Assembly (NCBI GenBank): GCA_022572725.1
Contig: JACZVJ010000009.1
Location: 1 to 47,273, forward strand
Source: Nitrospinota bacterium
Lineage (GTDB): Bacteria; Nitrospirota; Nitrospiria; Nitrospirales; UBA8639
DNA length: 47,273 bases
Direction of reading: 5' to 3'
Numbering within the stretch: the first letter of the stretch is position 1; each line of letters begins with the position of its first letter. Shown here piece by piece: positions 12,883 through 32,377 of this stretch. The position numbers and the translations under genes are program-made. The notes below the pieces were generated by a model that was not told the origin of the DNA, searched no databases, and was given only the letters and a program-made list of their open reading frames with translations.

Positions 12883-13635
12883 TTAGGGGCGGCGAAGCCC
12901 ACAGGCTCGTGCGATACCCTCTCGATATTGAAGCCAGACGTCCAGCGCTTGCTCGAGGCTACCTAGCACCAGTTTCTGTTTGCCTGTCTCAACGGCCTCC
13001 TTGACGATAAGATCGTATGCGGTCCGGCGGTTACAGGGTTCAATCATTTCTCGGACCCGGACGAGATCCATATACTCCGGACTTAGTCCGTGGTACACCA
13101 CGAGGGGATGTTTTAACACGATGTCTTCAATCTCTGCTTTTGTTTTTGGTTGATGTTGATGAAGGACTTCTTCTCGATCGTTCGCTGTTCCTTCGACGAA
13201 GATGGTAAGATTAGCCGCCCCGACTAACCATTCCTCATCTTGGCAAATCCCGTCTAGCCATTCCCGGTAGGCCCAACTCGATGCCAGGAGCTCTACCTCA
13301 CGAAACTCTGCCCGGCTAAATCCTAGCCCCAGCATCATTTGAAGAAACGACTCTTGGTGGGGTTTCCCCAGCGAAAGGCCACCCGTTTCTTCTTCGTAAA
13401 TGGTTGTAGCCAAATGTCTTCGAATCTGCCAGGAGGGGTTCTTGCCCATGATGCGTCCCAGCAACACTGCGAAGTCACGAAGGTACACTGCATATTCTTG
13501 ACGAAAGTGAATTCTGAGCTGGGCATTGGTGACCGTGCTCCCATTAAAGTGGGAGTTGGTCCAGTGCTGTTTTCGGCTCAAGATGTCAAACAGGTGATCG
13601 CGGAATTGTTCTGGAGAGAGTTTTCGAAACATCAT
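12883..13635 (-). CDS. Heme-oxygenase-fold (TenA/PqqC/CADD-like) protein
   Basis: The 250-residue all-helical protein resembles the iron-containing redox enzyme family: an early LRIHFRQEYAVYLRDFAVLL helix, IRRHLATTIYEEETG with two or three candidate Glu ligands, KPHQESFLQMMLGLG with a His, TIFVEGTANDRE with a Glu, and a late VVYHGLSPEYMDL helix with His, Glu and Asp. Members include TenA, PqqC and the CADD-like para-aminobenzoate synthase. The last ligand set does not match CADD cleanly, so I do not assign that reaction. No neighbour points to folate, thiamine or PQQ. A short divergent region with an AT-rich patch at 13730-13760 separates it from the gene at 13811. Confidence 0.7.
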   Translation of the reverse strand: MMFRKLSPEQFRDHLFDILSRKQHWTNSHFNGSTVTNAQLRIHFRQEYAVYLRDFAVLLGRIMGKNPSWQIRRHLATTIYEEETGGLSLGKPHQESFLQMMLGLGFSRAEFREVELLASSWAYREWLDGICQDEEWLVGAANLTIFVEGTANDREEVLHQHQPKTKAEIEDIVLKHPLVVYHGLSPEYMDLVRVREMIEPCNRRTAYDLIVKEAVETGKQKLVLGSLEQALDVWLQYREGIARACGLRRP

Positions 13636-16499: not shown

Positions 16500-19400
16500 A
16501 TGGATAGAGAGCCAACCCCTCTTTCCGAGTTGAAGGCCTTGCTGAGCATGCGGGTTGTGGTATTGGATGGGGCCATGGGCACCATGATTCAAGAGCATAA
16601 GTTGGAGGAGGCAGATTTTCGTGGGGTCCAATTTGCAAATCATTCCTGTGATCTCAAGGGGAATAATGATCTGCTTTCCCTTACTCAACCCGAGCTGATT
16701 TCCTCCATTCATTGTGCATACATGGAAGCCGGAGCTGACATTATCGAGACCAATACCTTTAATTCCAATGCCATCTCCATGGCGGATTATCAATTGGAGT
16801 CTTTGGTGTATGACCTTAACGTGGCCGGCGCCCGGGCTGCTCGGAAGGCCGTTGAAACGATGGGGGCTAAAGATCCCAACCGGCCGCGTTTTGTGGCCGG
16901 GGCAATGGGGCCCACCAATCGAACGGCTTCAATGTCTCCGGATGTGAATGATCCAGCCTTCCGGGCAGTGACCTTTGATCAATTGTGTGAAGCCTATTAC
17001 GAGCAGGTACGGGGACTCATTGATGGTGGGGTGGATTTGCTTTTGGTGGAAACCATATTTGATACCCTCAATTCCAAGGCTGCTCTGTTTGCAGTTGATC
17101 GTTATTGTGAAGAGCAGCAGCGGCAAATTCCCGTCATGGCCTCAGTGACCATCACTGACCTGAGTGGACGAACCCTATCTGGTCAGACAATCGAGGCATT
17201 TTGGAACTCGATTTCGCATGCCGAGTTGTTGAGCGTGGGGATCAATTGCGCGCTCGGGGCCAAGCAAATGCGTCCTTATATCGAAGAGCTTTCCCGCCTT
17301 GCCCCAGTCTATATCAGCTGTTACCCCAACGCAGGGTTGCCGAATGCCTTCGGAGGATTCGATGAGACTCCGGACAAAATGGCAACTGATTTACGGGATT
17401 TTGTTAGCAATGGGTGGCTGAATATCGTTGGCGGATGTTGCGGCAGTACCCCAGCTCATATCCGAGCTATTGCCGGAGCGGTAGGAGATCTTCCCCCCCA
17501 TGTCATAAGTGCGCCTGCCCGAGTGACCAGGCTGAGTGGACTTGAACCTTTGTCGATTCGCCCCGAGGCTAATTTTATCAACATTGGTGAACGAACCAAT
17601 GTGACTGGCTCTCCCAAGTTTGCCAGGCTGATCCTCAACGGGGAGCTTGAAGAAGCCTTGTCCATCGCCCGGCAACAGGTTGAAGGGGGAGCTCAAATTT
17701 TAGATGTCAACATGGATGAAGCCTTGTTGGATTCTGAAAAAGCTATGGTGAATTTCTTGAACCTGATTGCTTCTGAGCCGGACATCGCTCGAATTCCTAT
17801 TATAGTGGACAGCTCAAAATGGTCGGTCATTGAAGCAGGGTTAAAGTGCCTGCAAGGCAAAGGCATCGTGAATTCCATCAGCCTCAAAGAGGGTGAAGAG
17901 TCCTTTAAGCGGCAGGCCCGACAGGTCAAGCGATATGGGGCTGCTGTGGTTGTTATGGCGTTTGATGAAACTGGACAAGCTGACACCATTGATCGGAAGG
18001 TGGAGATTTGTACGAGAGTCTATCGCATTCTGACTGAAGAGGTAGGATTTCCTCCAGAAGATATTATCTTTGACCCGAATATTTTAACCGTGGCCACCGG
18101 CATGGAAGAGCACAACGCCTATGCGGTCAACTTCATTGAGGCAACTCGACGCATCAAAGCCGCTCTTCCTCATTGTAAGGTCAGTGGTGGGGTCAGCAAT
18201 ATCTCGTTTTCGTTCCGTGGGAACAACGTAGTTCGGGAAGCGATGCACTCGGCCTTTCTCTACCATGCCGTCCATGCGGGATTAGATATGGGGATTGTCA
18301 ACGCAGGGCAATTGCGGGTGTATGAAGATATTCCTAAGGATTTATTGGAACTGGTTGAGGACGTGCTGTTGAATCGGAGACCAGATGCGACCGAACGGCT
18401 GGTGACCTTTGCCGAAACAGTGAAACAGGGAGGAAGGACAGCCGTCAAAGATGAGGCTTGGCGACAGGGGACAGTGGAAGAACGCCTATCACATGCACTG
18501 GTCAAAGGGATTGTGGACTATATCGATGAGGATGTGGAGGAGGCCCGTCAGCAGTATGAGAGACCCCTCCATGTGATTGAAGGCCCTTTAATGGCGGGCA
18601 TGAATATCGTAGGGGACCTGTTTGGATCGGGGAAAATGTTTTTGCCCCAAGTGGTGAAAAGCGCGCGCGTGATGAAGAAGGCGGTGGCCTATCTGCTCCC
18701 GTACATGGATGCCGAAAAACAAGCGTCGGGAGGCGGGGCAGCGCAGGCGAAAATTCTCATGGCGACGGTCAAAGGGGATGTCCACGACATTGGAAAAAAT
18801 ATTGTGGGCGTCGTGCTGGCGTGCAACAACTATGAAATCATTGATCTGGGCGTCATGGTTCCTTGCGACAAGATTTTGAAAACCGCCAAAGAAGAAAAAG
18901 TCGATTTGGTCGGGTTGAGCGGGCTCATCACGCCATCCCTCGACGAAATGGCACACAACGCCAGAGAAATGACCCGTGAAGGGTTTACCATCCCTCTGCT
19001 CATTGGGGGCGCCACGACGAGCAAGGCGCATACCGCGGTGAAGATTGCTCCGGGTTACAAGGAACCGGTTGTGCATGTTTTAGATGCTTCATTGGCAGTC
19101 AAGGTGGTGCGTCAACTATTAAGTCCTGAAGCGAAGCCGGCGTTTGTTGAAAAAGTTCGACAACAACAGCAACAGTCCCGTGAGGCCTACGAAGGGAAGA
19201 AAACGAAGAAAACGTTGTTGCCTCTCCAAGAGGCCCGCAAGCGTCGAATGGTGATTGATTGGGAAAGGTCCGATATTCCAAAGCCAAGTTTTCTGGGAAC
19301 CCGTGTGATCGAGGATTTACCCTTGGAAAAACTCGTACCGGTGATTGATTGGTCCCCTCTCTTTTATACCTGGGAATTAAAGGGACGGTATCCAAAGATT

Positions 19401-20210
19401 TTTGAGGACCCCAAAATGGGCGGGAGAGCCAAAGAGCTCTTTGATGATGCCCAAGGGTTGCTCCAAGAGATCATTAAGAATAAGCTCTTAACCGCCAAGG
19501 GAATCTATGGCTTTTTCCCGGCAAATAGTATGGAGGATGATATTCAGGTCTACACCGATGAATCCCGTGGCGAGATCCTCACAACCTTCCATACCCTTCG
19601 CCAGCAAATGAGTAAACCTGAAGGAGACTTCAATTTCGCGCTCGCGGATTTTATCGCCCCCAAATCTACGGGCTTGGCGGATTATCTGGGGGGGTTTGCG
19701 GTCACCGCAGGGATTGGGATCGAAGCCCTTTGCGAGCGATTTGAAAAAGACCATGATGACTATAATTCAATCATGGCCAAGGCCCTCGCTGATCGATTCG
19801 CCGAGGCCTTCGCCGAATGGCTCCACCAGGAAGCACGACGGGAATGGGGATATGGGGTACAGGAGAATCTTTCCAACGAAGACCTGATACGAGAACGGTA
19901 TCGCGGGATCCGCCCGGCGCCCGGCTATCCCGCTTGCCCAGACCATACCGAAAAACAGATCCTGTTTAATGTGTTAGCCGCTGAAAAGCATACTGGCATT
20001 CATCTGACCGAAAACTATGCCATGTATCCTGCTAGCTCCGTCAGCGGGCTTTACTTTGCCCACACCCAAGCCAAATACTTCGCTGTGGGGAAAATTGACC
20101 TTGACCAGGTCAAGGATTATGCCGTGAGGAAATCCATGGACCTGCGGACAGTGGAGCGTTGGCTCTCCTCCAACCTGCATTATGATCCGGGCCAGGCGAA
20201 AACGAAGTAA
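16500..20210 (+). CDS. metH: Cobalamin-dependent methionine synthase
   Basis: At 1236 residues this is full length for the four-module enzyme. Module 1 (1-330) binds homocysteine and zinc: GINCALG and [12 protein letters not shown] hold the three Cys ligands. Module 2 (about 350-620) is the methyltetrahydrofolate domain ([30 protein letters not shown]). Module 3 (about 640-890) carries cobalamin: [11 protein letters not shown] has Asp760, His762 and Gly765 for base-off binding, then [11 protein letters not shown] and LIGGATTS. Module 4 (930-1236) is the S-adenosylmethionine reactivation domain: [20 protein letters not shown] and [17 protein letters not shown]. It moves the methyl group from methyltetrahydrofolate to homocysteine. 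It is monocistronic. Confidence 0.98.
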
Positions 20211-20606: not shown

Positions 20607-21113
20607 TTATGAAAAAGTTAGAGAGAGTTCAGCCGGTTCGGGAATGGCTGAATCGAGACTGACAGCTTTAAGAGCATCGGAGATCCACCGGTATCGTTCT
20701 TCTGCCCAGGCATTGAACGCGTTGGAATTTTCGAACATGAGGTCCCAAGCCCGGACTCCATCGAGGAGAAGGAGTTGGTGCGGTTTATTTTGCCCTGGGA
20801 AATAGACCACCAGGACAGCGGAATTCCCCATAAGGCTGATATCGGTGAACATATGAATCATGGCTTCTGGGGGCAAATGAACGGAAAGGGACGCGGCCTC
20901 GACGATGGGCCCGTAGATTCGATGAAGAAATTGTTGGATAGTTTCGTAGGGCGACTTGGATTCATGAAGCTTGGTATTGGGAGTTTCCCCGATGAGGTTT
21001 TCGGTTAGATATTCTACAGCTTCCCAAGTGGGCATGGAGCCCGAATGAACGAGCGAATCCATGAGGTAGGAAAGCCAGTTGCGGGTTATTGGATGATAGG
21101 CGTTATGTGTCAT
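20607..21113 (-). CDS. Soluble protein of unknown function
   Basis: 168 residues, starting MTHNAYHPITRNWLSYLMDS. The fold looks alpha/beta: helices at the start (WEAVEYLTENLIG, YETIQQFLHRIYG), then strands SAVLVVYFPGQNKPHQLLLLDG and a Trp-rich end (NAWAEERYRWISDALK). No signal peptide, membrane segment or family recognised. It is divergent from the radical SAM operon. Confidence 0.68.
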   Translation of the reverse strand: MTHNAYHPITRNWLSYLMDSLVHSGSMPTWEAVEYLTENLIGETPNTKLHESKSPYETIQQFLHRIYGPIVEAASLSVHLPPEAMIHMFTDISLMGNSAVLVVYFPGQNKPHQLLLLDGVRAWDLMFENSNAFNAWAEERYRWISDALKAVSLDSAIPEPAELSLTFS

Positions 21114-21447
21114 GGCTTATTCCTCACGCATCCCTTTTCGGGAAAATTGTCGTACGACTTTAAGGTTTTTAAATGTTGATTAGATCAGTAACTGTCAGGC
21201 GGGAAATACCTGGAGTCAATTTAACTCACGAATCTTAAGAATATCATAAAATATGTCATTTTGTCAATAGGATCAAAGCCTCGATTCACTGCCCTTGCCA
21301 ACCCTTGACCACCCTTTTTCCGTAGGAATAGAATGGCTCCTCTTCTTTAAACTTTTGAGATTCTTGGGCTTTTTCTAGTCAGGGCTTGAAAAACGTCCAA
21401 GGGAGGGAATGGTTTGGCTTGATCATTATATAGCGAGGATCATTAGT
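21114..21447. other. AT-rich divergent intergenic region before the radical SAM genes
   Basis: 334 nt between divergent genes. It contains a GTCGTACGAC palindrome near 21152 and an AT-rich patch at 21230-21270, likely promoter ground, but I see no clear -35/-10 pair. Confidence 0.4.
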
Positions 21448-23343
21448 ATGAGGATAGACTATAATAAAGGCGAACGGGTGACGCCTCAGCTCATTCAACT
21501 CCGCCGGGAAACCGAAAAGACGGCCTCCGACCAAAAACGGAAGGTGATGCTGGTTTTTCCCCCGGATTGGTACCCCTCCGAACCCTACCTGAGCCTTCCA
21601 ACCTTGACTGCCTTTCTCCGAAGTGCAGGGCACGACGTTGTGCAAAAGGATGTCAATTTGGAGATGTACGATTGGTATTTTAGCGCAGACTTTCTGAAAA
21701 GGGTTCAGAAAAAAATCCCTCAACAATTGGATCGGCTTAAGAAAATTTCTAGAGATCGAGAATTGACTGAAAGTGAAGTTGACCTGCAGTTGGCTCTGTG
21801 TGAATGTACTCGCACTCGGATTTCCGAACTCATCGAAAAGGCCGAAGAGGCCAAGGGCATTGTGAGGTCGGCAGATTTATATGATGCAGGTAAACTGGAG
21901 TGGGCCATCAATGTTTTTCGCGAGGTCACGGACACGATTTCGCTGGTATACGCTCCCGCTCGAATTTGTATGCCACCGATGGAGACCGACCTGTCCTACA
22001 AGGTTTTTATGTCCACCGAAATTCTGGAGGCCGTTCAGGACAAGCAGGTCAATGTGTATCGCGATGTTTTTGACCATATTTTAAAGCCGGCCATTGTGGC
22101 CGAAGCGCCTGACATTATTGGGATTTCCATTGTCCTTCAACAGCAGCTCTTTTCCTCCATGACCTTTTGCGCCCTCATCAAGGAACAGTTTCCTCATATT
22201 CATATCACCATTGGAGGAAATACGGTTACCAGGCTTCGTGATGTCCTGCCTACGGCCACCAACCTCTTTGCCCTGTTTGATAGTGCGGTCATGTTTGAGG
22301 GCGAAACCGCCTTCCTCCAACTCGTGGAAGCGGTTGGAACCGATCGAGGCTTCTCCGAGATTCCCAACTTGATGTATCGCGATGCCTCGGGGATCCATAC
22401 CTCTTCGGTGACCTGTGCAGAAGATATGGCCCAGCTCCCTCCTCCCGATTTTGATGGCCTTCCATTGGAAAAATATTTTGTGCCTGTCCCTATTTTGCCT
22501 TACTTGGCCACGCGGGGGTGTTATTGGGGACGTTGCGAATTCTGTGACCATGGAGAGGGGTATACCGCTGGCTATCGTACAAAGAAGGTCGATCAAATCA
22601 TTGAGGAGATTCAATATCTTAAGGACAAATACTCCACAGCTCATTTCCACTTTACGGATGAGTCCTACCCCCCGGCTTTGTTCCGGAAACTGACCCGCAA
22701 GCTTATTGACCAAAAAATGAATATCGCTTGGACGACGCATATGCGGTTTGAAAAGAGTTTGTTGGACGAGGAGGTCTGGAAGGACGCCAAGGAATCTGGG
22801 TGTAAGTTTCTTCACGTGGGATATGAGTCTGGTAGTGAGCGTGTGCTTAAATTGATGGATAAAGCGACGACCACGGATGTTATTCGACGGAGTCTTGAGT
22901 TGTCTTCCACCTATGGGGTGTGGAACCACGTGATGGGGTTCTTTGGGTTCCCGGGTGAAACCTATGAGGATGCCAAGTTTTCCATGCAATTTCTTGAAGA
23001 CAATAAGGACCATGTGCATTCCATCGGGTTTGGAACATTCGATTTAAGTAAACACAACCCTGTTGCAAAGAATGCGGAAAAATGGGGGATCACGTACTAT
23101 ATAAATCCTGAGTGGGACCTGGCCCTGGATTATTATTTCACGGTTAAGGAAGGGCTTGGGGTAGAAGACGCCGAGCGGGTGTTTGAGGAATTTGAGCAGA
23201 ATCACTATTCTGGGTGGGATCTGAAGATCTTTATACGGGAATATGTCTTCCTTTATGTGGCTCGTTTTGGGACCAACAGGCTGCCAGCTCTTCAATTCAG
23301 GGTGAGTCCTGAGGAAGATGTTCAAGAGTTGGCCAAAGTGTAA
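21448..23343 (+). CDS. B12-binding-domain radical SAM protein, paralogue 1
   Basis: Start ATG 21448 has GAGGAT 8 nt upstream; ATG 21409 is also open, but its GGAGGG is only 1 nt away. From 21448 the protein has about 631 residues. The N-terminal Rossmann part begins RKVMLVFPPDWYPSEPYLSL and continues FLRSAGHDVVQKDVNLEMYD. It is followed by a long helical insert and IIGISIVLQQQLFSSMTFCA and IHITIGGNTVTRL, the cobalamin-domain core without the DxHxxG motif. The radical SAM barrel starts ILPYLATRGCYWGRCEFCDH; the cluster Cys are spaced CX4CX2C instead of CX3CX2C. SAM-binding GGE-like and later strands follow (HFTDESYPP, HVGYESGSERVLKLMDK). The reaction is unknown; methylation or ring chemistry are typical for the class. 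The next gene is a close paralogue 57 nt on. Confidence 0.85.
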   Translation: MRIDYNKGERVTPQLIQLRRETEKTASDQKRKVMLVFPPDWYPSEPYLSLPTLTAFLRSAGHDVVQKDVNLEMYDWYFSADFLKRVQKKIPQQLDRLKKISRDRELTESEVDLQLALCECTRTRISELIEKAEEAKGIVRSADLYDAGKLEWAINVFREVTDTISLVYAPARICMPPMETDLSYKVFMSTEILEAVQDKQVNVYRDVFDHILKPAIVAEAPDIIGISIVLQQQLFSSMTFCALIKEQFPHIHITIGGNTVTRLRDVLPTATNLFALFDSAVMFEGETAFLQLVEAVGTDRGFSEIPNLMYRDASGIHTSSVTCAEDMAQLPPPDFDGLPLEKYFVPVPILPYLATRGCYWGRCEFCDHGEGYTAGYRTKKVDQIIEEIQYLKDKYSTAHFHFTDESYPPALFRKLTRKLIDQKMNIAWTTHMRFEKSLLDEEVWKDAKESGCKFLHVGYESGSERVLKLMDKATTTDVIRRSLELSSTYGVWNHVMGFFGFPGETYEDAKFSMQFLEDNKDHVHSIGFGTFDLSKHNPVAKNAEKWGITYYINPEWDLALDYYFTVKEGLGVEDAERVFEEFEQNHYSGWDLKIFIREYVFLYVARFGTNRLPALQFRVSPEEDVQELAKV

Positions 23344-23400
23344 GACCGCAGCAGAGACACGATTTAGAGCCTTGCCCTTTATTCATAAGGATACACTCTC

Positions 23401-25368
23401 ATGACCTCCGAGTTGATCAAAATTGATGGAACGGATCCTAATTCAAAAAGCGGGCGGAAGTTAAAGACGTTGCTTCTCTTTCCGCCGGAATGGGTGCCCA
23501 CAGCTCCCTATCTGGCCCTCCCGAGTCTCACGGCCGTGCTTCGGGAAAATGGCCATGAGGTGATCCAAAAAGACGTCAATATTGAAATGTATGATTTGTT
23601 CTTCAGCGATATGTTCTTGATTTGGGTCAATGCCCGCATGGCTCAACAGCTTCGGACCTTGGAAGCCAAAGAACAAGTTGAAGGACTGACTGAGCGCGAG
23701 ATAAATCACAAGGCCTGTTTGGAAGAACATCAGGGAATTGATGTGATGGATTTGGCCGAGCAAGCCGAACGGGCCAAGCACATCAACCGGAGTGAGGAAT
23801 TTTACGATGCCGATAAACTGGAATGGGCTCTGAATACCTTTCGGGAAGTGATGCGGTACATCTCGGCAGCCTACTTTCCTGCCTCCCTGGTCTACTATCC
23901 CATGGAAAGTAATTTGGGGTACCGGCCAGGGGTATCGAGTGAGGTCCTAGCATGTCTCGATGACGAACAGGTCAATGTGTACCGCGACATTTGCCGTCAA
24001 TTGGTTCTTCCTGAGGTCAGCAAAGAACAGCCTGATGTAGTGGGCGTCTCGATTGGAACCCAGATGCAGCTTTTGGCTGGAATGACGTTCTGTAAAATGA
24101 TCAAGGAAACTTTCCCACACATTCATGTGACAGTGGGGGGAAATGTCATTACCAGGCTCCAGGAAGATCTGCCGAAGAAGGAGCAGTTTTTTACCTCCGT
24201 TTTCGACTCAGCCATTCTCTATGAGGGAGAGCATGCGCTGCTCTGGTTGTTAGAGGCCATTGCAGGCGATCGGGATTGGACGGCGGTTCCCAATCTGATG
24301 TATCGAGATAAGGGTCAGGTCCGCGTCAACCCGGAGATTTACACGGAAAAGACCACGGCCTTGCCACTTCCTGATTTCGAAGGGCTTCCTCTGGATACCT
24401 ACTTCGTTCCCGTTCGAATTCTTCCCTATCTTGCCACCCGTGGATGCTATTGGGGACGCTGCAAGTTTTGCGACCATGGGCAGGGTTATTTTGATCAGTA
24501 TAGGGGAAAGCCGGCTGGGGACGTGATTCGGGAAGTCAAGGCGCTCAAGGAAAAGTATCAGGTCAATCACTTCTTATTTGCGGATGAGTCATACCCTCCG
24601 GCTCTGTTTAAAAAGGTCTCCCAACTTCTGGTCGAAGAAGATCTGAATATTAATTGGACGACCTTGATTCGGTTTGAAGAAACCCTTCAGGACCCAGAGA
24701 TTTGGAAATTGGCAGCCAAGTCCGGGTGTCGGACTCTCTACTATGGCATGGAGTCGGCCAGTGAACGTGTTCTGGAATTAATGGATAAGCATGCCAAGAA
24801 GAGCGTTATTGAAAATAACTTAAGAGAAGCATCGAAGGTCGGGATTTGGAATCACGTGATGGCTTTTTACGGGTTCCCAGGAGAAACCCGTGAAGAAGCT
24901 GAAGAGACGCGGCAGTTCCTCCTTGACAACAAGCCTCACATTCATTCGGTGGAATTATTTTATTTCGTGGCATACCGCCATACCCCGATGGTCCGCAATG
25001 CAGATAAATTTGGCATCACGATCCACAAGCAAGAAGAGTATGATATCCCTCTCGACTACTATTACACCTTAAACGAACCTGGGGGGGTCAGTTGTCGGGA
25101 GGCCATGCAAATGTGCGAAGATTTCTATCGAAATGATTTCGAGCCTTGGGCGGTTCGAATCAACGCTCGCGAGCAAGTCTTCCTGTACATATCGAAGTTT
25201 GGAAACAACAAGCTTCCGCAGATATATGCCAGTCAGAAGAGTCCGGAGGACATTCGCTCAGACCGCGTCTCCGGTTTGATTACGTGGCCAGTCGCCAAAG
25301 CCGATCCGGAAGGTGGAAAGGACGGAGAGCCGGGAATGACGCGGGTGGTGAGCCACGCCGCCTTTTAG
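23401..25368 (+). CDS. B12-binding-domain radical SAM protein, paralogue 2
   Basis: 655 residues, same layout as the preceding gene and about half identical by eye: LKTLLLFPPEWVPTAPYLAL at the start, IQKDVNIEMYDLFFS, the helical insert, VVGVSIGTQMQLLAGMTFCK, IHVTVGGNVITRL, then ILPYLATRGCYWGRCKFCDH with the same CX4CX2C spacing, FLFADESYPPALF and YGMESASERVLELMDK. It is surely a tandem duplicate kept for divergent or cooperating function. The two genes probably form one operon. The last 30 residues are a charged extension absent from paralogue 1. Its stop overlaps the convergent J-like gene by 4 nt. The substrate is unknown. Confidence 0.86.
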   Translation: MTSELIKIDGTDPNSKSGRKLKTLLLFPPEWVPTAPYLALPSLTAVLRENGHEVIQKDVNIEMYDLFFSDMFLIWVNARMAQQLRTLEAKEQVEGLTEREINHKACLEEHQGIDVMDLAEQAERAKHINRSEEFYDADKLEWALNTFREVMRYISAAYFPASLVYYPMESNLGYRPGVSSEVLACLDDEQVNVYRDICRQLVLPEVSKEQPDVVGVSIGTQMQLLAGMTFCKMIKETFPHIHVTVGGNVITRLQEDLPKKEQFFTSVFDSAILYEGEHALLWLLEAIAGDRDWTAVPNLMYRDKGQVRVNPEIYTEKTTALPLPDFEGLPLDTYFVPVRILPYLATRGCYWGRCKFCDHGQGYFDQYRGKPAGDVIREVKALKEKYQVNHFLFADESYPPALFKKVSQLLVEEDLNINWTTLIRFEETLQDPEIWKLAAKSGCRTLYYGMESASERVLELMDKHAKKSVIENNLREASKVGIWNHVMAFYGFPGETREEAEETRQFLLDNKPHIHSVELFYFVAYRHTPMVRNADKFGITIHKQEEYDIPLDYYYTLNEPGGVSCREAMQMCEDFYRNDFEPWAVRINAREQVFLYISKFGNNKLPQIYASQKSPEDIRSDRVSGLITWPVAKADPEGGKDGEPGMTRVVSHAAF

Positions 25369-25688
25369 GAATGCCCATCAGGGTTTTGAGACAAATCTGT
25401 TTCCTGAACCCACCGAAGGAGCACTTTGTAGGCCCCATGAACCTCCTTCGACATCGCCTCCCCCTTCTTATACATTTGCATATACTTCCGTGGATTATTG
25501 GTGAGGTTGGCATATCGATGAGGATGCCATCTGACTAATAATTCGCGGTACCGTTGGGTGAGCCGATCGGGGGTGACCGGGGCCGTGAGTTCAAAGACTT
25601 GGAGGGCTCTTTCGATTTGTTCCCGGGTTATCAGGACAGCTTTAGCAGTTTCGTGCTTCTCGGGATCCGGGGCCATGGGCACTGCCAT
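25365..25688 (-). CDS. Degenerate J-domain-like protein
   Basis: 107 residues from ATG 25688. Residues about 24-100 fit the J-domain: ITREQIERALQVFEL, then LTQRYRELLVRWHPHRYANL and a final KEVHGAYKVLLRWVQE helix. In true J-proteins the loop between helices II and III has His-Pro-Asp, which stimulates DnaK; here it is His-Pro-His, so DnaK stimulation is unlikely. It may be a docking protein or an assembly factor for the adjacent radical SAM enzymes. It lies between two radical SAM genes but on the opposite strand. Confidence 0.65.
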   Translation of the reverse strand: MAVPMAPDPEKHETAKAVLITREQIERALQVFELTAPVTPDRLTQRYRELLVRWHPHRYANLTNNPRKYMQMYKKGEAMSKEVHGAYKVLLRWVQETDLSQNPDGHS

Positions 25689-25814
25689 CAAAAAAGGAAA
25701 GGGGCTTGTTCAGCAAGGGGTGGAGTGTTGCAGACCACAAATGGCTCTGTCAATGAAATGACCCAACACGTTGGGGTATCGTGGATGAAGGTCTCATTAC
25801 TGTAGGAATGAACC

Positions 25815-27053
25815 ATGGGACGTGCCTTGCCTGTTCTTGAGCCTACCCTTGTGTTGAAAGGGAAAGGCCATCGAGAAGTGCTCAAGCGGGAGATGGATGC
25901 GGGCAAAATTCCCCTCAGTCTCGGGAAAAATTGTCCGGTGAAGTGTGAATTTTGCTATGAGCTCGACCATTCTTATCGTGAAACGCTTGATCCACCGAAA
26001 ACCACTCAGGATGATTGGGAATTCATCCTCAGCTACATCAATTCCAAACCCACCGATCCCATGCAGTTCTGGTGTTTGGGCGGAAACGAATATATGGAAT
26101 GGACAGATCTCTTTCTCCACCCGAAGGCTATGGAGTGGGTGGAGGATTTTCTGCAGCATACGGATAAAAACATTACATTCTTTACCGTGGGTTTTGTTCA
26201 TGTTCCAAAGTTACATCAGCTTGTAGAACAGTATCCAGGTCGCATTAACTTTGAGTTGTCGGTGATCACTCTGGGGTCTTACCGAGAGCGGCTCATGCCC
26301 CATGCCCCTTCCATTACACACCTGATGAAAGTCCTCGATGGGCCAGCCGTGTCAGCGGCCAACTTTTACTCCTTCGATCATCACACTATGTCGAAGGATG
26401 CAGAAGTCATTTCCCAGATTAATCAGAAATGTGTGCTGTGGATGGGGTGCTTAACGCCGGTTCGGGGAATTAAAGAAGAAACGGCGGCCCTCATGCGGCA
26501 AGGGCGGCAATACCTGCCGGCCGAAGCAATGCGGATTTATGACGCAGGCTATCCCAATCTCACTTCCATTCACACAGAGTCCTACGTGACAGCTTTTCTG
26601 AATCGAAAACGGATTATGAGTCTATTTGATTCTTTGGAATTGGAAAAACAAGACACGGTCGTGATGGCGGGAAATGTGTATAAGATCTTGAATATGTACC
26701 GAAAAAACCGTGCCAGGTTTTGGCATGTCCCCAATGCCACGCTGGGTGGTGACACGGATTGTACGGGTCTTCTGACCTTTGAGGACATCCGAAAACGGTT
26801 GGGCAATGAAAAACGTATTCACATCCCCAAATGCGTGATGGAGTCTGGCCGAGGTCCGTACACGGATATCGCCGGGGTCACCCTTGAGGAGTTCATGAAA
26901 AAGACCGGGGTAAAGGTGAGAATTCTTCATAAAATTGATACCAAATTCGCGAACACCCGATTGTATCGAAACGGCTCTTTGAAGAACTTTGTCGAAGATT
27001 ACGTGCGGAATCCATTGTCTGCTGATTATGAGAGGCTGCCCCTCAGTGCCTGA
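25815..27053 (+). CDS. Radical SAM protein with DUF512-like C-terminal motif
   Basis: 412 residues, ATG with TAGGA 7 nt upstream. CPVKCEFCY (Cys40, 44, 47) is a canonical CX3CX2C cluster motif, near the N-terminus. FWCLGGNEYMEWTDLF follows as the SAM-binding Gly region, and INFELSVITLGSYRERLM and LDGPAVSAANFYSFDH are barrel strands. The C-terminal half has a NATLGGDTDCTGLLTFEDI segment that resembles the GG-x-VTVTGLLTG-x-D motif of DUF512 proteins, and two further Cys (WMGC, KCVMESG). No B12 domain. Reaction unknown. It is divergent from the J-like gene and near the two B12-type radical SAM genes, so a shared pathway is possible but not shown. Confidence 0.78.
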   Translation: MGRALPVLEPTLVLKGKGHREVLKREMDAGKIPLSLGKNCPVKCEFCYELDHSYRETLDPPKTTQDDWEFILSYINSKPTDPMQFWCLGGNEYMEWTDLFLHPKAMEWVEDFLQHTDKNITFFTVGFVHVPKLHQLVEQYPGRINFELSVITLGSYRERLMPHAPSITHLMKVLDGPAVSAANFYSFDHHTMSKDAEVISQINQKCVLWMGCLTPVRGIKEETAALMRQGRQYLPAEAMRIYDAGYPNLTSIHTESYVTAFLNRKRIMSLFDSLELEKQDTVVMAGNVYKILNMYRKNRARFWHVPNATLGGDTDCTGLLTFEDIRKRLGNEKRIHIPKCVMESGRGPYTDIAGVTLEEFMKKTGVKVRILHKIDTKFANTRLYRNGSLKNFVEDYVRNPLSADYERLPLSA

Positions 27054-27140: not shown

Positions 27141-28073
27141 ATGAGTGCTGACTCGCAGCGCCTGCAATATTACCAGGCCGATGTGTTCACCGATCGCCCC
27201 TTTGGGGGCAATCCAGTTGCAGTATTCCCCGATAGTGAAGGTCTCACCGACTGCGAGTTTCAACAAATCGCCAGGGAGATGAACCTTTCGGAAACGGTGT
27301 TTGTGGTCCCTTCCACCGATCCGATCGCTTGCGCCAAACTTCGTATTTTCACCCCGACCCAAGAAATTCCCTTTGCGGGCCATCCTGTTCTCGGCACCTT
27401 CCATATTTTGGGAACGTTGAAGCGTTTTCCGCTAACAGAGCCCATCACACGAGTGATGTATGAATGCAATATTGGGGTTTTCCCAGTGGAGCTTTGTGTC
27501 TTGAAAGGTCAAATTGACCGTGTTGTGATGGTGCAACCCCAACCCCAGTTTTTAGGGATTGTGGATGCCGTTGAGGATTTGTATGACGTGAGCAAGGCTC
27601 TGCGCATCCCCAAAGCGGCTATCACCGCCACTCGCTTTCCAGTCGAGGTGGTGTCAACAGGGTTGCCGGTCATGGTTGTACCTGTTCGCTCTTTGACAGC
27701 CGTCAAATCCATTTCCGTCGATCCGACCGCCGTCATCGAAGTCTGTGCTCGATTGGGAACCAACGGTATTATGGTTTTCACCACCATGACCGTGGAGGAC
27801 TGGTCAATGGTGCACACCAGAATGTTCGCTTCCCCCATTGGGGTTGTGGAAGATCCTGCCACGGGCAGTGCGAGTGGGGCCTTGGGGGCCTATCTTGTAA
27901 AGAATGGGGTCGTTGATGTCGGACCCATGACCGAAATCGTCGCCGAACAAGGATATGAAATTGATCGCCCCTCACGGATCCTGATCCAGGTGCTTTCCGA
28001 TGACGATATCATTCAGGAAATTAAAGTGGGGGGTCAAGTGGTGATGGTGGCTGAGGGAAAGCTGGTCTTTTGA
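27141..28073 (+). CDS. PhzF-family isomerase-like protein
   Basis: 310 residues with the two-lobed PhzF/diaminopimelate-epimerase-like fold. Signature motifs: VFTDRPFGGNPVAVF at residue 15, REMNLSETVFV with the catalytic Glu51, EIPFAGHPVLGTFHIL, and in the second lobe VVEDPATGSASGALGAYLV. The family isomerises or hydrolyses small acids; the substrate here is not evident and no phenazine genes are near. Start at ATG 27141 has no strong ribosome-binding site. It is followed 31 nt later by the oxidoreductase gene. Confidence 0.88.
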   Translation: MSADSQRLQYYQADVFTDRPFGGNPVAVFPDSEGLTDCEFQQIAREMNLSETVFVVPSTDPIACAKLRIFTPTQEIPFAGHPVLGTFHILGTLKRFPLTEPITRVMYECNIGVFPVELCVLKGQIDRVVMVQPQPQFLGIVDAVEDLYDVSKALRIPKAAITATRFPVEVVSTGLPVMVVPVRSLTAVKSISVDPTAVIEVCARLGTNGIMVFTTMTVEDWSMVHTRMFASPIGVVEDPATGSASGALGAYLVKNGVVDVGPMTEIVAEQGYEIDRPSRILIQVLSDDDIIQEIKVGGQVVMVAEGKLVF

Positions 28074-28104
28074 GCGGAGTGGAGTGGGGGGAGGAACACA
28101 CGAC

Positions 28105-29139
28105 ATGAAGGCAGTGAGATTTCACGAGCATGGCGGACCTGAGAAGCTCCAGGTTGAGGACACCCCGATTCCCGAAATTGGACCGGGTGAAGTGTTGATT
28201 AGGGTTAAAGCCTGTGCTCTGAATCATCTCGATATTTGGATTAGGCAAGGCATTCCTGCTTATCGAATTCCGCTCCCCCACGTGTCCGGCTGCGACGTCA
28301 GTGGCGTGATCGAGCGAATGAGTGAGCCGGATGCGCAAGGGCTTTCCATGGGGCAATCGGTCTTTATCTCACCCGGCTTGAGCTGTTGGCACTGCGAGCA
28401 GTGTCTTGGAGGGCGGGATAACTTATGTCCTTCCTATCAAATCCTTGGGGCTCAGGTGGATGGCGGCTATGCAGAATATGTGAAGGTTCCCACTGTGAAT
28501 GCCCTCCCCATTCCTGATGGACTGACCTTTGAAGAGGCTGCGGCGTTCCCTTTGGTTGCTGTGACGGCCTGGCATATGGTCGTCACGCTTGCCAAGGTTC
28601 GTCCGGCGGAGACGGTGCTGGTGATGGGTGCGGGGAGTGGGGTGGGAACTATGGCAGTGCAGATTGCCAGGGTGGTTGGTGCCCGAGTGTTTACCACTGT
28701 CGGGTCAGAGGAAAAGGTCGCCAAGGCCCAGTCGCTAGGGGCGGAAGTGGTAATAAACCATGCGAGTGAGGATATCGAAAAACGGGTCCATCATCTAACC
28801 GAGGGGCGTGGGGTCGATGTTGTCATCGAGCACATTGGAGAAAAAGTCTGGGATCAATGTATTGGGGCACTCGTTCGTGGGGGACGACTGGTCACCTGTG
28901 GGGCGACGACGGGTGGGCAAGTCAAGTTGGATGTTCGGGTCCTATTTTCCCGTCAGCTCACCCTGATGGGGTCCTATATGGGGACAAGGGCCGAACTCGT
29001 CGAGGCTGCTAAAATGGTGGGGGTTGGGAAGCTTCGGCCAGTAGTGGACTGCGTGATGCCTTTGTCTGAGGCGCGAAATGCACAAGAGCGTTTGTTGGCC
29101 CGTCAGATTTTTGGAAAAGTGGTGCTCACCACGATGTAA
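28105..29139 (+). CDS. Zinc-type alcohol dehydrogenase / quinone oxidoreductase family
   Basis: Start ATG 28105 follows GGAGG at 10 nt. 344 residues of medium-chain dehydrogenase: GPGEVLIRVKACALNHLDIW in the catalytic domain, then CWHCEQCLGGRDNLC with four Cys for the structural zinc, and VLVMGAGSGVGTMAVQIARV as the NADPH-binding Rossmann turn. The Asn in ALNHLD, in place of the Cys zinc ligand, puts it with quinone reductases and crotonyl-type reductases that lack catalytic zinc. It probably reduces an activated double bond with NADPH. Probably co-transcribed with the PhzF-like gene. Confidence 0.86.
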   Translation: MKAVRFHEHGGPEKLQVEDTPIPEIGPGEVLIRVKACALNHLDIWIRQGIPAYRIPLPHVSGCDVSGVIERMSEPDAQGLSMGQSVFISPGLSCWHCEQCLGGRDNLCPSYQILGAQVDGGYAEYVKVPTVNALPIPDGLTFEEAAAFPLVAVTAWHMVVTLAKVRPAETVLVMGAGSGVGTMAVQIARVVGARVFTTVGSEEKVAKAQSLGAEVVINHASEDIEKRVHHLTEGRGVDVVIEHIGEKVWDQCIGALVRGGRLVTCGATTGGQVKLDVRVLFSRQLTLMGSYMGTRAELVEAAKMVGVGKLRPVVDCVMPLSEARNAQERLLARQIFGKVVLTTM

Positions 29140-29189: not shown

Positions 29190-29762
29190 CTACCTCGTAA
29201 TTTCTTCAACAATGTGAGGCAATTCGGGCAAGATCAATTGCTCCATGGCCAATCGAACGGCTCCGCTTGACCCGGGAATGGAAAAGAGAATTTTCCCACG
29301 GTACAACCCGGCCGTAGATCGGCTCAATATAGCAGGCGAGCCGATTTCTTTATAACTCAAATAGCGAAAAATTTCGCCAAACCCTTCCAGCCGTTTCTCC
29401 AATAACGCATCCACAGCCTCGAAAGTCGTATCCCTCGAGGAAATTCCCGTTCCTCCATTAATGATCAGGGCGGAGACGGTCTCCAGCCGTACAAGCTGTT
29501 CAACCAGCTTGCGAACTTCTTCAGGTTCGTCCTTCACAACATGGTAGGCCTCCACCCGGTGTCCTTTTTCCTTGAGGAGTTCCTGAATGATCTGCCCGCT
29601 TTTGTCCGTCTCTGGAGTTCGGGTGTCGCTGCAGGTAATGACGCAACACCCAATGGATGATGGCGCACGAGCCTTATGTTCTGCGGGAGCATGAGGCTCC
29701 TTTGGGTGTTCTTTTCCAGATTCAGGGGCTGTATGTGAATGTGTGTGGGGATGTTCAGCCAT
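29190..29762 (-). CDS. moaB: MoaB/Mog-family molybdopterin biosynthesis protein with His-rich tail
   Basis: 190 residues. From residue 36 it is a complete MoaB/Mog domain: IGCCVITCSDTRTPETDKSG, VSALIINGGTGISSRDTTFE with the GGTG nucleotide loop and catalytic Asp, and LFSIPGSSGAVRLAMEQLI. These proteins adenylylate molybdopterin before metal insertion or a related step. The first 35 residues are an added segment with nine His (HPHTHSHT, KEHPKEPHAP) and several acidic residues, likely a flexible metal-binding tail. The divergent or upstream neighbour on the same strand is a [2Fe-2S] ferredoxin, 27 nt away. Confidence 0.9.
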   Translation of the reverse strand: MAEHPHTHSHTAPESGKEHPKEPHAPAEHKARAPSSIGCCVITCSDTRTPETDKSGQIIQELLKEKGHRVEAYHVVKDEPEEVRKLVEQLVRLETVSALIINGGTGISSRDTTFEAVDALLEKRLEGFGEIFRYLSYKEIGSPAILSRSTAGLYRGKILFSIPGSSGAVRLAMEQLILPELPHIVEEITR

Positions 29763-29789: not shown

Positions 29790-30116
29790 TTAATCCCAGA
29801 CAGAGTCAGGTTTCATTTGCTCAACGGGGGTGCCCTTTTTAATGTGTTCGTCGAGAATGAGGGGGACATCGGATTCTTTGACCTGGGAATACCAGGTGCC
29901 GTCGGGATAGACGACCATGGTCGGGCCCAGCTCACATGGGCCTAAACAGGTGGAGCCTGTTATCAGCACATCACCGGGCTGAAAGCCACGTTCCATTAGC
30001 CCCATATTCAGGGCCATGAGGATATTTTGCGACCCGGCTCCTCCGCAAGACGGCTTGGGGTGTCCCGGAGGGCGGGCGTTGGTGCACACGACAATGTGAT
30101 ATTTGGGTTTGGGCAT
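29790..30116 (-). CDS. Thioredoxin-like [2Fe-2S] ferredoxin
   Basis: Start ATG 30116 has AAAGGAGTGAAC just upstream. 108 residues with the Shethna-type thioredoxin fold: HIVVCTNARPPGHPKPSCGG gives the first two cluster Cys, STCLGPCELGPTMVVYPDG the other two. The cluster spacing (CX12-14C ... CX3C) fits the family. It is a small soluble electron carrier; possible partners are molybdenum or radical SAM enzymes. It is encoded upstream of moaB on the same strand and likely co-transcribed. Confidence 0.9.
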   Translation of the reverse strand: MPKPKYHIVVCTNARPPGHPKPSCGGAGSQNILMALNMGLMERGFQPGDVLITGSTCLGPCELGPTMVVYPDGTWYSQVKESDVPLILDEHIKKGTPVEQMKPDSVWD

Positions 30117-30242
30117 GTTCACTCCTTTCAGCTGAGAGATCCCTCAATGAGGTTCAGGTATGAGTCGTTTTGGACTCAGGAATACAAAAGCGAGATGGGC
30201 CAAAGGGGTGTTGAAAGGATAAGTCCAATGTATCAGCTCCCT

Positions 30243-30686
30243 TCACTTGGAACGAAAAATTTCCCACATGTCGATGCACTCCTCGGGAAGTTCCCAGTGC
30301 TTGACCCCCTTAATGACCCAATCTAAATAATGGTCTTTCACTTTGAATTTCCCGATGGGATTCGCCACGTGCGTAGTCACGAGCTCTTTTTGGTCCTCCT
30401 CGGTCATCACCGATGCTTCCAGATGGCGAAAGGATCCCTCGGGAACTTCCCCCTCAAATTCATCCAAAATTTTCAAATCTTCTTCCGTGATGTCGAAGAC
30501 CACACCCCAAACCCGTTCCCCTTGAGAAGGAGTCACACTTCCCAAGCCACAGCGCCACTGGGAGGACCACCGGGGGAAGTAGATCTTATGGTCTGGGAGG
30601 TAAGCCTTGAAAAGAAAGCGGTGTTCAGGCGCTCGTCTTTTGAGCTGGGTGGGATTAAGATTATCTGCGAAAATAAAGAATTTCAT
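30243..30686 (-). CDS. Gamma-glutamylcyclotransferase-like (AIG2) protein
   Basis: 147 residues. The start MKFFIFADNLNPTQLKRRAP is the family's YGSNL-like loop in altered form; LPDHKIYFPRWSSQW, GERVWGVVFDITEEDLKILD and the EFEG motif (catalytic Glu near 80) follow. The fold cleaves gamma-glutamyl or related amides, but the altered first loop makes the substrate uncertain. No clear ribosome-binding site. It lies between the ferredoxin gene and the divergent tryptophanase gene. Confidence 0.8.
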   Translation of the reverse strand: MKFFIFADNLNPTQLKRRAPEHRFLFKAYLPDHKIYFPRWSSQWRCGLGSVTPSQGERVWGVVFDITEEDLKILDEFEGEVPEGSFRHLEASVMTEEDQKELVTTHVANPIGKFKVKDHYLDWVIKGVKHWELPEECIDMWEIFRSK

Positions 30687-30958: not shown

Positions 30959-32377
30959 ATGAGGACGCCTTCCTGGAACTATCGAACCATTATCGAGCCC
31001 TTTAAAATCAAAGTCGTTGAACCTATTCGCATGACGACGCGGGAGGAGCGGCAGGTCATCCTGCGCCAGGCCCACTACAACATGTTTAACATCAAAGCCA
31101 ACGACATTCTCATTGACCTTCTGACGGATAGTGGGACCGCGGCCATGTCCTCCGAGCAGTGGGCAGCGATGATGCGGGGGGATAACGCCTACGCCGGGTC
31201 AAAGAGTTTCTACCGTTTTGAAGAAGAAGTGAAAGGGCTCACGGGATATGCCCATATCATCCCGACTCATCAAGGGAGAGCGGCGGAGAAAATCCTGTTC
31301 TCCATTGTCGGTGGAAAGGGCAAAGTCGTGCCCAACAACACTCACTTCGATACCACGCGGGCGAACGTCGAGTTTAGCGGGGCGGAGGCGGTTGATCTCG
31401 TCATCCCAGAAGGGAAACAACCCCAGGCGAAACATCCGTTTAAGGGAAATATGGATGTGAAGAGGCTGGAACGGCTGTTAGGAGAATCCAAGCCCGGGCA
31501 GGTGCCGCTCTGTATGCTCACCGTCACCAATAACTCCGGAGGCGGACAGCCGGTGTCCATGGAGAACATCCGGGAGACGAGTGCCCTCTGCCGGAGGTTT
31601 GGCGTCCCGTTCTTTTTAGATGCCTGCCGGTTTGCCGAGAATGCCTATTTCATCAAGCTTCGGGAACCTGGCTATGAGGAGAAAACCCCGGCTGAAATTG
31701 CCAGGGAAATGTTTCGCCACAGTGATGGCTGCACAATGAGCGCCAAGAAGGATGGACTGGTGAACATGGGCGGATTTTTGGGCCTCAATGACGAACAGTT
31801 GACCCAACAGGCCAGAAACGTCCTGATCCTGACCGAGGGATTTCCCACATACGGCGGATTGGCAGGCCGTGATTTGGAGGCGATCGCACAGGGTCTCCGT
31901 GAAGTGTTGGATGAAGACTATCTGAAATATCGGCTTCGCTCAGTCGAGTATCTGGCCGAGCACTTGATCCGAATCGGCTACCCTCTCATCGAACCGCCGG
32001 GAGGACACGCAGTCTACATTGATGCGCGGACTCTCCTCTCGCACCTTCCCGCAAACCAGTTCCCGGCGCAAAGCCTCTGCTCGGCCTTGTACGAATATGG
32101 AGGAATTCGCACGGTGGAAGTCGGCAATGCCATGTTTGGACGGACGGAAAATGGGGAAGAGATCCCAGCCGATATGGATCTGGTCCGGTTGGCGGTGCCG
32201 CGTCGAGCCTACACGCAAAGTCACATCGACTATGTCATTGAAGTCGCGGAGATGGTGTATCAAGACCGGCAGACCTTAAAAGGATTCCGAGTGGTCAAAC
32301 AAACCCCGATCCTGCGCCACTTCACCATTGAATTGGAACATGTCGAAAGTCGGCTAGCTGGGAAAAAAGGGGATTAA
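30959..32377 (+). CDS. Tryptophanase / tyrosine phenol-lyase family PLP enzyme
   Basis: 472 residues, full length for the family. NMFNIKANDILIDLLTDSGT and AYAGSKSFYRFEEEV are near the N-terminus; TVTNNSGGGQPVSMENI and FLDACRFAENAYFIK bind the cofactor; DGCTMSAKKDGLVNMGG holds the PLP-binding Lys (about 262); LVRLAVPRRAYTQSHIDYV is the C-terminal substrate region. It catalyses beta-elimination of Trp (indole, pyruvate, ammonia) or Tyr (phenol). The SAKKDG loop and AVPRRAYTQSH give mixed signals, so specificity stays open. No tnaC leader peptide was seen upstream. The start could also be the ATG a few codons on. Confidence 0.92.
   Translation: MRTPSWNYRTIIEPFKIKVVEPIRMTTREERQVILRQAHYNMFNIKANDILIDLLTDSGTAAMSSEQWAAMMRGDNAYAGSKSFYRFEEEVKGLTGYAHIIPTHQGRAAEKILFSIVGGKGKVVPNNTHFDTTRANVEFSGAEAVDLVIPEGKQPQAKHPFKGNMDVKRLERLLGESKPGQVPLCMLTVTNNSGGGQPVSMENIRETSALCRRFGVPFFLDACRFAENAYFIKLREPGYEEKTPAEIAREMFRHSDGCTMSAKKDGLVNMGGFLGLNDEQLTQQARNVLILTEGFPTYGGLAGRDLEAIAQGLREVLDEDYLKYRLRSVEYLAEHLIRIGYPLIEPPGGHAVYIDARTLLSHLPANQFPAQSLCSALYEYGGIRTVEVGNAMFGRTENGEEIPADMDLVRLAVPRRAYTQSHIDYVIEVAEMVYQDRQTLKGFRVVKQTPILRHFTIELEHVESRLAGKKGD

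Follow-up and report, generated by a model that had tools for sequence, protein, structure and literature searches.

Paired genes for predicted cobalamin-dependent radical SAM proteins in Nitrospirales: conservation, relatives and a possible tie to nitrite oxidation

Which reaction, on which substrate, might be carried out by two adjoining radical SAM genes that Nitrospirales bacteria keep side by side? We examined this pair, R1 and R2, and its surroundings in a 47,273-nucleotide window that is one whole contig of a 3.17-Mb genome; Nitrospira and other Nitrospirales are its nearest named relatives among the best 80 loci listed. The first-pass annotation had described two B12-type radical SAM paralogues, a J-like gene and a third radical SAM gene (R3), followed by PhzF-like and quinone reductase-like enzymes, and had suggested that the three radical SAM genes form one dedicated pathway. 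All of the genes it named were present (Table 1). The reading we prefer, with a probability of roughly 0.35, is that R1 and R2 C-methylate a protein connected with the machinery of nitrite oxidation.

Table 1. Features in the window, with what each call rests on.
Feature	Position	Strand	Basis or remark
Haem-oxygenase-like iron-containing redox enzyme	12883-13635	-	PF14518
MetH, full-length cobalamin-dependent methionine synthase	16500-20210		Just upstream of block
168-aa protein	20607-21113	-	Divergent, upstream of R1
R1, predicted cobalamin-dependent radical SAM protein	21448-23343	+	Pfam domains, AlphaFold2 model, fold matches
R2, second predicted cobalamin-dependent radical SAM protein, old R1 paralogue	23401-25368	+	Pfam domains, tree, 48% identity to R1
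J-like small protein	25365-25691	-	PF00226, E 6.5e-4 (below cut-off); adjoins R2
R3, putative divergent DUF512-type radical SAM protein	25815-27053	+	Profile and hhalign match, synteny
PhzF-family isomerase	27141-28073	+	TIGR00654, 237 bits (cut-off 76); conserved with R1-R2-J
MDR zinc-binding alcohol dehydrogenase / quinone-oxidoreductase-like	28084-29139	+	Domain search; less conserved neighbour
MoaB-like	29190-29762	-	Convergent neighbour; linked by synteny only
Thioredoxin-like [2Fe-2S] protein	29790-30122	-	Convergent neighbour; linked by synteny only
GGCT/AIG2-like	30243-30686	-	Convergent neighbour; linked by synteny only
Tryptophanase / tyrosine phenol-lyase-like protein	30959-32377		NF009709; outside conserved block

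Domains, structure and age of the R1-R2 pair

The longest ORF of R1 spans 21409-23343 (644 aa), and its residue 14, at 21448, is the start in nearly all orthologues, giving a protein of 631 aa and agreeing with the start assigned in the first pass. R2 (655 aa) follows after 57 nt, and from this operon-like spacing the two genes are probably co-transcribed; in relatives the gap ranges from -1 to 166 nt. PF04055 and PF02310 exceed the Pfam gathering score in both proteins (for PF02310, 34.8 and 34.4 bits against a cut-off of 32.1), and both retain an intact CxxxCxxC motif whose cysteines were invariant across 25 sequences. The AlphaFold2 model of R1 (pLDDT 88) has a B12 Rossmann fold into which a helical stretch of about 150 aa is inserted, followed by a radical SAM domain, with fold matches to TsrM, OxsB, MgmA, TokK, AprD4 and CysS. 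By these domains R1 and R2 are predicted cobalamin-dependent radical SAM proteins, the cofactor and SAM cleavage being predictions as well. Methylation is the commonest chemistry among cobalamin-dependent radical SAM enzymes (PMC11659888), and family membership makes a methyl-adding role for R1 and R2 likely.

The pair had been called uncharacterised, and placement of the paralogues in a solved family had been named as one of two results that would overturn the first-pass reading. No such placement emerged from NCBIfam, PDB or fold searches. Every NCBIfam match fell far under its curated cut-off, with R1 and R2 scoring 129.8 and 112.8 bits against TIGR03975 (cut-off 281.85), 127 and 153 against TIGR04479 (PhpK; 600), 68 and 58 against TIGR04014 (MgmA; 360), and 50-86 against the hopanoid or lipid B12 radical SAM models HpnJ, HpnR and TIGR04072 (360-650). 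A PDB sequence search returned weak matches only, to OxsB, MiaB/RimO-like proteins and 9ccb. On these scores R1 and R2 fall outside the characterised families compared, and a search of the literature on radical SAM enzymes in Nitrospira, Nitrospina or anammox bacteria found nothing on theirs.

The description of the paralogues as recent-looking duplicates did not hold. They are 48% identical, and in our tree R1 and R2 form sister clades (100/100), an ancient split with Nitrospirales and Nitrospina in each clade; the duplication predates the sharing between Nitrospirota and Nitrospinota and is therefore not recent.

A conserved core and a separable third radical SAM gene

We collected loci with R1 at >=60% identity and more than 6.5 kb downstream, which gave 80 loci, 70 of them from Nitrospirales and some genomes represented twice. 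Conservation across relatives, proposed in the first pass as a check, with its lack as the other refuting result, was high: R2 adjoins R1 in 70/70 Nitrospirales loci, and the J-like and PhzF genes are each present in 69/70. R3 is kept in 44, the MoaB-like gene in 60, the [2Fe-2S] and GGCT genes in 57 and the MDR gene in 49. The order R1-R2-J-(R3)-PhzF recurs in 70 Nitrospirales loci and is thus not chance. The R1/R2 family (E up to 1e-60) was found in 101 of 296 Nitrospirota genomes, only one of which lies outside the window's order. Gaps in MAGs affect all counts of absence given here.

Many genomes retaining R1-R2-J-PhzF have no R3, and in family f2 it is solitary, mostly beside proC-like genes, so the core of the block is R1-R2-J-PhzF. 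Because R3 is separable from this core, a single three-gene pathway is not supported. The R3 protein (412 aa; cluster motif CPVKCEFC) matches PF04459 (DUF512) just under the cut-off by itself (E 3.3e-5) and attains it only with neighbours in frame (25.2). The match recurs weakly at the C-terminus of 16/16 orthologues, few of which attain the cut-off, and the Radical_SAM domain was found in 12/16. Aligned by hhalign to a profile of 17 canonical DUF512 proteins from other Nitrospirota, R3 matched with 97.7% probability (E 1.8e-12) over 288 columns that include the cluster cysteines. Its structural model is of low confidence (pLDDT 65), and a fold search with that weak model gave no clear match. 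On the PF04459 and hhalign matches we moved R3 from the ordinary radical SAM enzymes to the DUF512 type. Work from 2024 established that DUF512 binds cobalamin and resembles the corresponding domain of Mmp10 (PMC11659888); R3 is therefore probably a third cobalamin-dependent enzyme with another architecture, a point beyond the first-pass annotation, and all three radical SAM enzymes would probably be B12-dependent. Most other Nitrospirota have a single canonical DUF512 protein in each genome, and the window's order has the divergent R3 only.

The J-like gene and R2 are convergent, with ends that overlap by 4 nt. The HPD aspartate was absent in 24/24 sequences, and on this we rejected a role as Hsp70 partner or DnaJ co-chaperone. 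The homologues share the motif W.P.RY..LTNNP.KYM.MYKK.E, and the product is best described as a J-like helical protein with a predicted role of another kind. Upstream of R1, the 168-aa protein is conserved in family f1 and had no Pfam or NCBIfam match; besides its gene, no conserved small ORF was found in the block gaps of 16 loci. The first pass had likewise seen no precursor peptide, and since R1 and R2 reached no NCBIfam cut-off either, a RiPP cluster was rejected. Several genomes of family f1 keep metH close to R1, and in this family the haem-oxygenase-like gene is conserved near metH. An Rfam search of the window gave no match, and promoter and terminator predictions in it were no more than expected by chance.

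Distribution, candidate substrates and rival readings

The named scan reports the best 80 loci, and orthologues were taken from it and from follow-up. R1 orthologues were detected in a Nitrospina MAG (57% identity) and in the anammox bacterium Ca. Loosdrechtia (56%), and an R2 orthologue in Nitrospina (55%). A third paralogue, R4, is found in Nitrospirales, Nitrospina and the class of Ca. Loosdrechtia, and forms its own clade spanning three phyla (100/100). Nitrospira moscoviensis has R1, R2 and R4. Within that class, whose genomes we infer to be anammox bacteria, R1 is present at 55-77% in 18/74 genomes and an R4-like gene in about 40, many having R4 but no R1. One anammox-class R1 group nests in Nitrospirales family f1 (99/99), a clear case of R1 passing from this family to some members of the class; another joins Nitrospina. 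In loci L277-L286 of this class, R1 is about 66-72% identical to that of Nitrospira, nests within Nitrospirales in the tree, lacks R2, J and PhzF alongside, and often has a hemerythrin-like gene nearby.

Among 77 Nitrospinota genomes, 65 carry the family, and all 21 with NxrB at >=65% identity are among them; none of the 12 without the family has NxrB at that level (Fisher p 0.03, uncorrected for kinship). NxrB was not useful as a discriminating test within Nitrospirales, because nxr is nearly universal there and seemingly drops out of MAGs. Five genomes of genus g12 (G237, G279, G285, G296 and G301) have one R4-level match each and no R1 or R2; NxrB is present in G237, G279, G285 and G301, and the R1-R2 block was possibly lost along this lineage.

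In the window's own genome R4 (G000:C89:36324-37973; L091 8322-10094) is 35% identical to R1. It adjoins genes for a TorD-type chaperone (TIGR03482), two heme-b gamma subunits (TIGR03477), ferredoxin, NHL and TPR proteins, and in Nitrospina another paralogue has comparable genes nearby, including a TIGR03477 gene. By gene content this neighbourhood is a putative NXR-like (type-II DMSO-reductase) cluster, partly common to Nitrospina. PqqD is a peptide-binding module; the Pfam search did not find it in R1, R2 or R4, and outgroup relatives from Chloroflexi, Dehalococcoidia and one archaeon carry it at the C-terminus above the cut-off. The archaeal relative, in uncultured archaeon LFW-280 (L192 1-3797, one 4.9-kb contig), lies 0.8 kb downstream of mcrA and is a candidate further MCR-modifying enzyme. 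A Chloroflexi relative (L197 3860-11139) shares an operon with a DMSO-reductase-family molybdoenzyme and its FeS and membrane subunits. In methanogens, the mcrA product is C-methylated by the cobalamin-dependent radical SAM enzymes Mmp10 and MgmA (PMC11659888, PMC11796369). Together, the position of R4 beside NXR-like genes, the outgroup PqqD domains and the mcrA and molybdoenzyme neighbours favour a protein target in large redox enzymes, though we put a protein substrate for R1 and R2 at somewhat below even odds.

If R1 and R2 do modify such a protein, SAM would methylate cob(I)alamin, and a second SAM would be cleaved at the [4Fe-4S] cluster to a 5'-deoxyadenosyl radical, which would take hydrogen from an unactivated carbon of the substrate so that methylcobalamin could deliver its methyl group there. 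The most likely target would be a residue of NXR or of an associated subunit, within the machinery of nitrite oxidation, with R1 and R2 serving one site each, analogous to Mmp10 and MgmA on methyl-coenzyme M reductase. The J-like protein might act as a binding partner or substrate presenter rather than an Hsp70 co-chaperone, and R3 would be a separate DUF512-type cobalamin enzyme joined to the block in some lineages.

A link to NXR specifically is somewhat less probable than a protein substrate as such. The nxr genes are not next to R1 or R2, and several NxrB-bearing Nitrospira genomes without the pair indicate that NXR does not strictly depend on it, provided that those assemblies are complete. 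The paper on the Kuenenia NXR structure reports no methylated residue, though methylation was not among the changes covered by its mass search. Less probable again is that R1, R2 and R4 form a set devoted to maturing periplasmic-type NXR and give it C-methylated residues like those of methyl-coenzyme M reductase; were this so, nitrite oxidation would depend on vitamin B12.

Almost equally probable is that the substrate is a small molecule or lipid: R1 and R2 would modify, for example methylate, a hopanoid, methyl-branched lipid, quinone or cofactor, with PhzF and the MDR enzyme performing further steps. With PhzF a constant neighbour, co-directional with the pair (69/70 loci, the MDR gene 49/70), such a pathway fits as well. 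Lipids or small molecules are the substrates of many cobalamin-dependent radical SAM relatives, and R1 and R2 have weak, sub-cut-off similarity to HpnJ, TIGR04072, PhpK and HpnR. Mid-chain methyl fatty acids are common to anammox bacteria and Nitrospira; our literature search found no usable paper on them. However, R1 stands without PhzF, J or R2 alongside in the anammox class and Nitrospina, no lipid-enzyme model came near its own cut-off, and the outgroup PqqD domains indicate peptides or proteins.

We consider it improbable that the pair performs non-methylating chemistry, such as ring closure or contraction, hydroxylation or cyclisation of the BchE, OxsB or HpnJ type. The folds closest to the R1 model include OxsB and AprD4, and the BchE and HpnJ models match R1 and R2 weakly, but TsrM, TokK, CysS and MgmA folds are equally close and methylation is the commonest outcome in the class (PMC11659888). 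Slightly less probable still is that the shared distribution is a by-product of gene transfer among co-habiting nitrogen-cycle bacteria, with a housekeeping role apart from nitrite oxidation: the transfer of R1 out of family f1, its inconsistent neighbours in the anammox class and the Nitrospira MAGs with NxrB but no R1 or R2 would fit, but three orthologous groups (R1, R2 and R4) track the same lineages among the genomes scanned, and R4 adjoins NXR-like subunit genes.

Protein C-methylation tied to nitrite oxidation stays our preferred reading. The R1/R2 family is near-constant in Nitrospira-type genomes and is found again in two unrelated groups that oxidise nitrite, Nitrospina and the anammox class; together these bacteria make much of nature's nitrate and N2, and NXR is the main nitrate-forming enzyme on Earth. 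The conserved pair and this recurrence point, at the level of sequence, to an unstudied chemical step tied to nitrite oxidation; should NXR or a partner prove to be the target, a key nitrogen-cycle enzyme would bear an unseen modification tied to cobalamin supply.

Relation to known radical SAM systems

Among protein-modifying structures, the top-ranked in the R1 fold search was MgmA (TIGR04014, the methyl-coenzyme M reductase glutamine C-methyltransferase; PDB 9ccb). It has a cobalamin-binding and radical SAM fold in common with R1 but is only 16% identical, and R1 has the helical insert of about 150 aa in its B12 domain. The best NCBIfam match of R1, over 340 residues, was TIGR03975, a RiPP maturation radical SAM C-methyltransferase; PqqD occurs in R1/R2 outgroups, whereas the block itself has no precursor peptide. 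For R2 the best match was the PhpK-family P-methyltransferase TIGR04479, but no phosphonate or phosphinate genes were recognised nearby. TsrM, OxsB, TokK and CysS resemble R1 in overall fold, yet they are 13-15% identical (TM 0.41-0.51 by query) and their substrates are natural products. R3 can be likened, through PF04459 and hhalign, to the DUF512 proteins and Mmp10 as a radical SAM protein with a predicted C-terminal cobalamin-binding domain, from which it differs in being very divergent and in having no PDZ domain.
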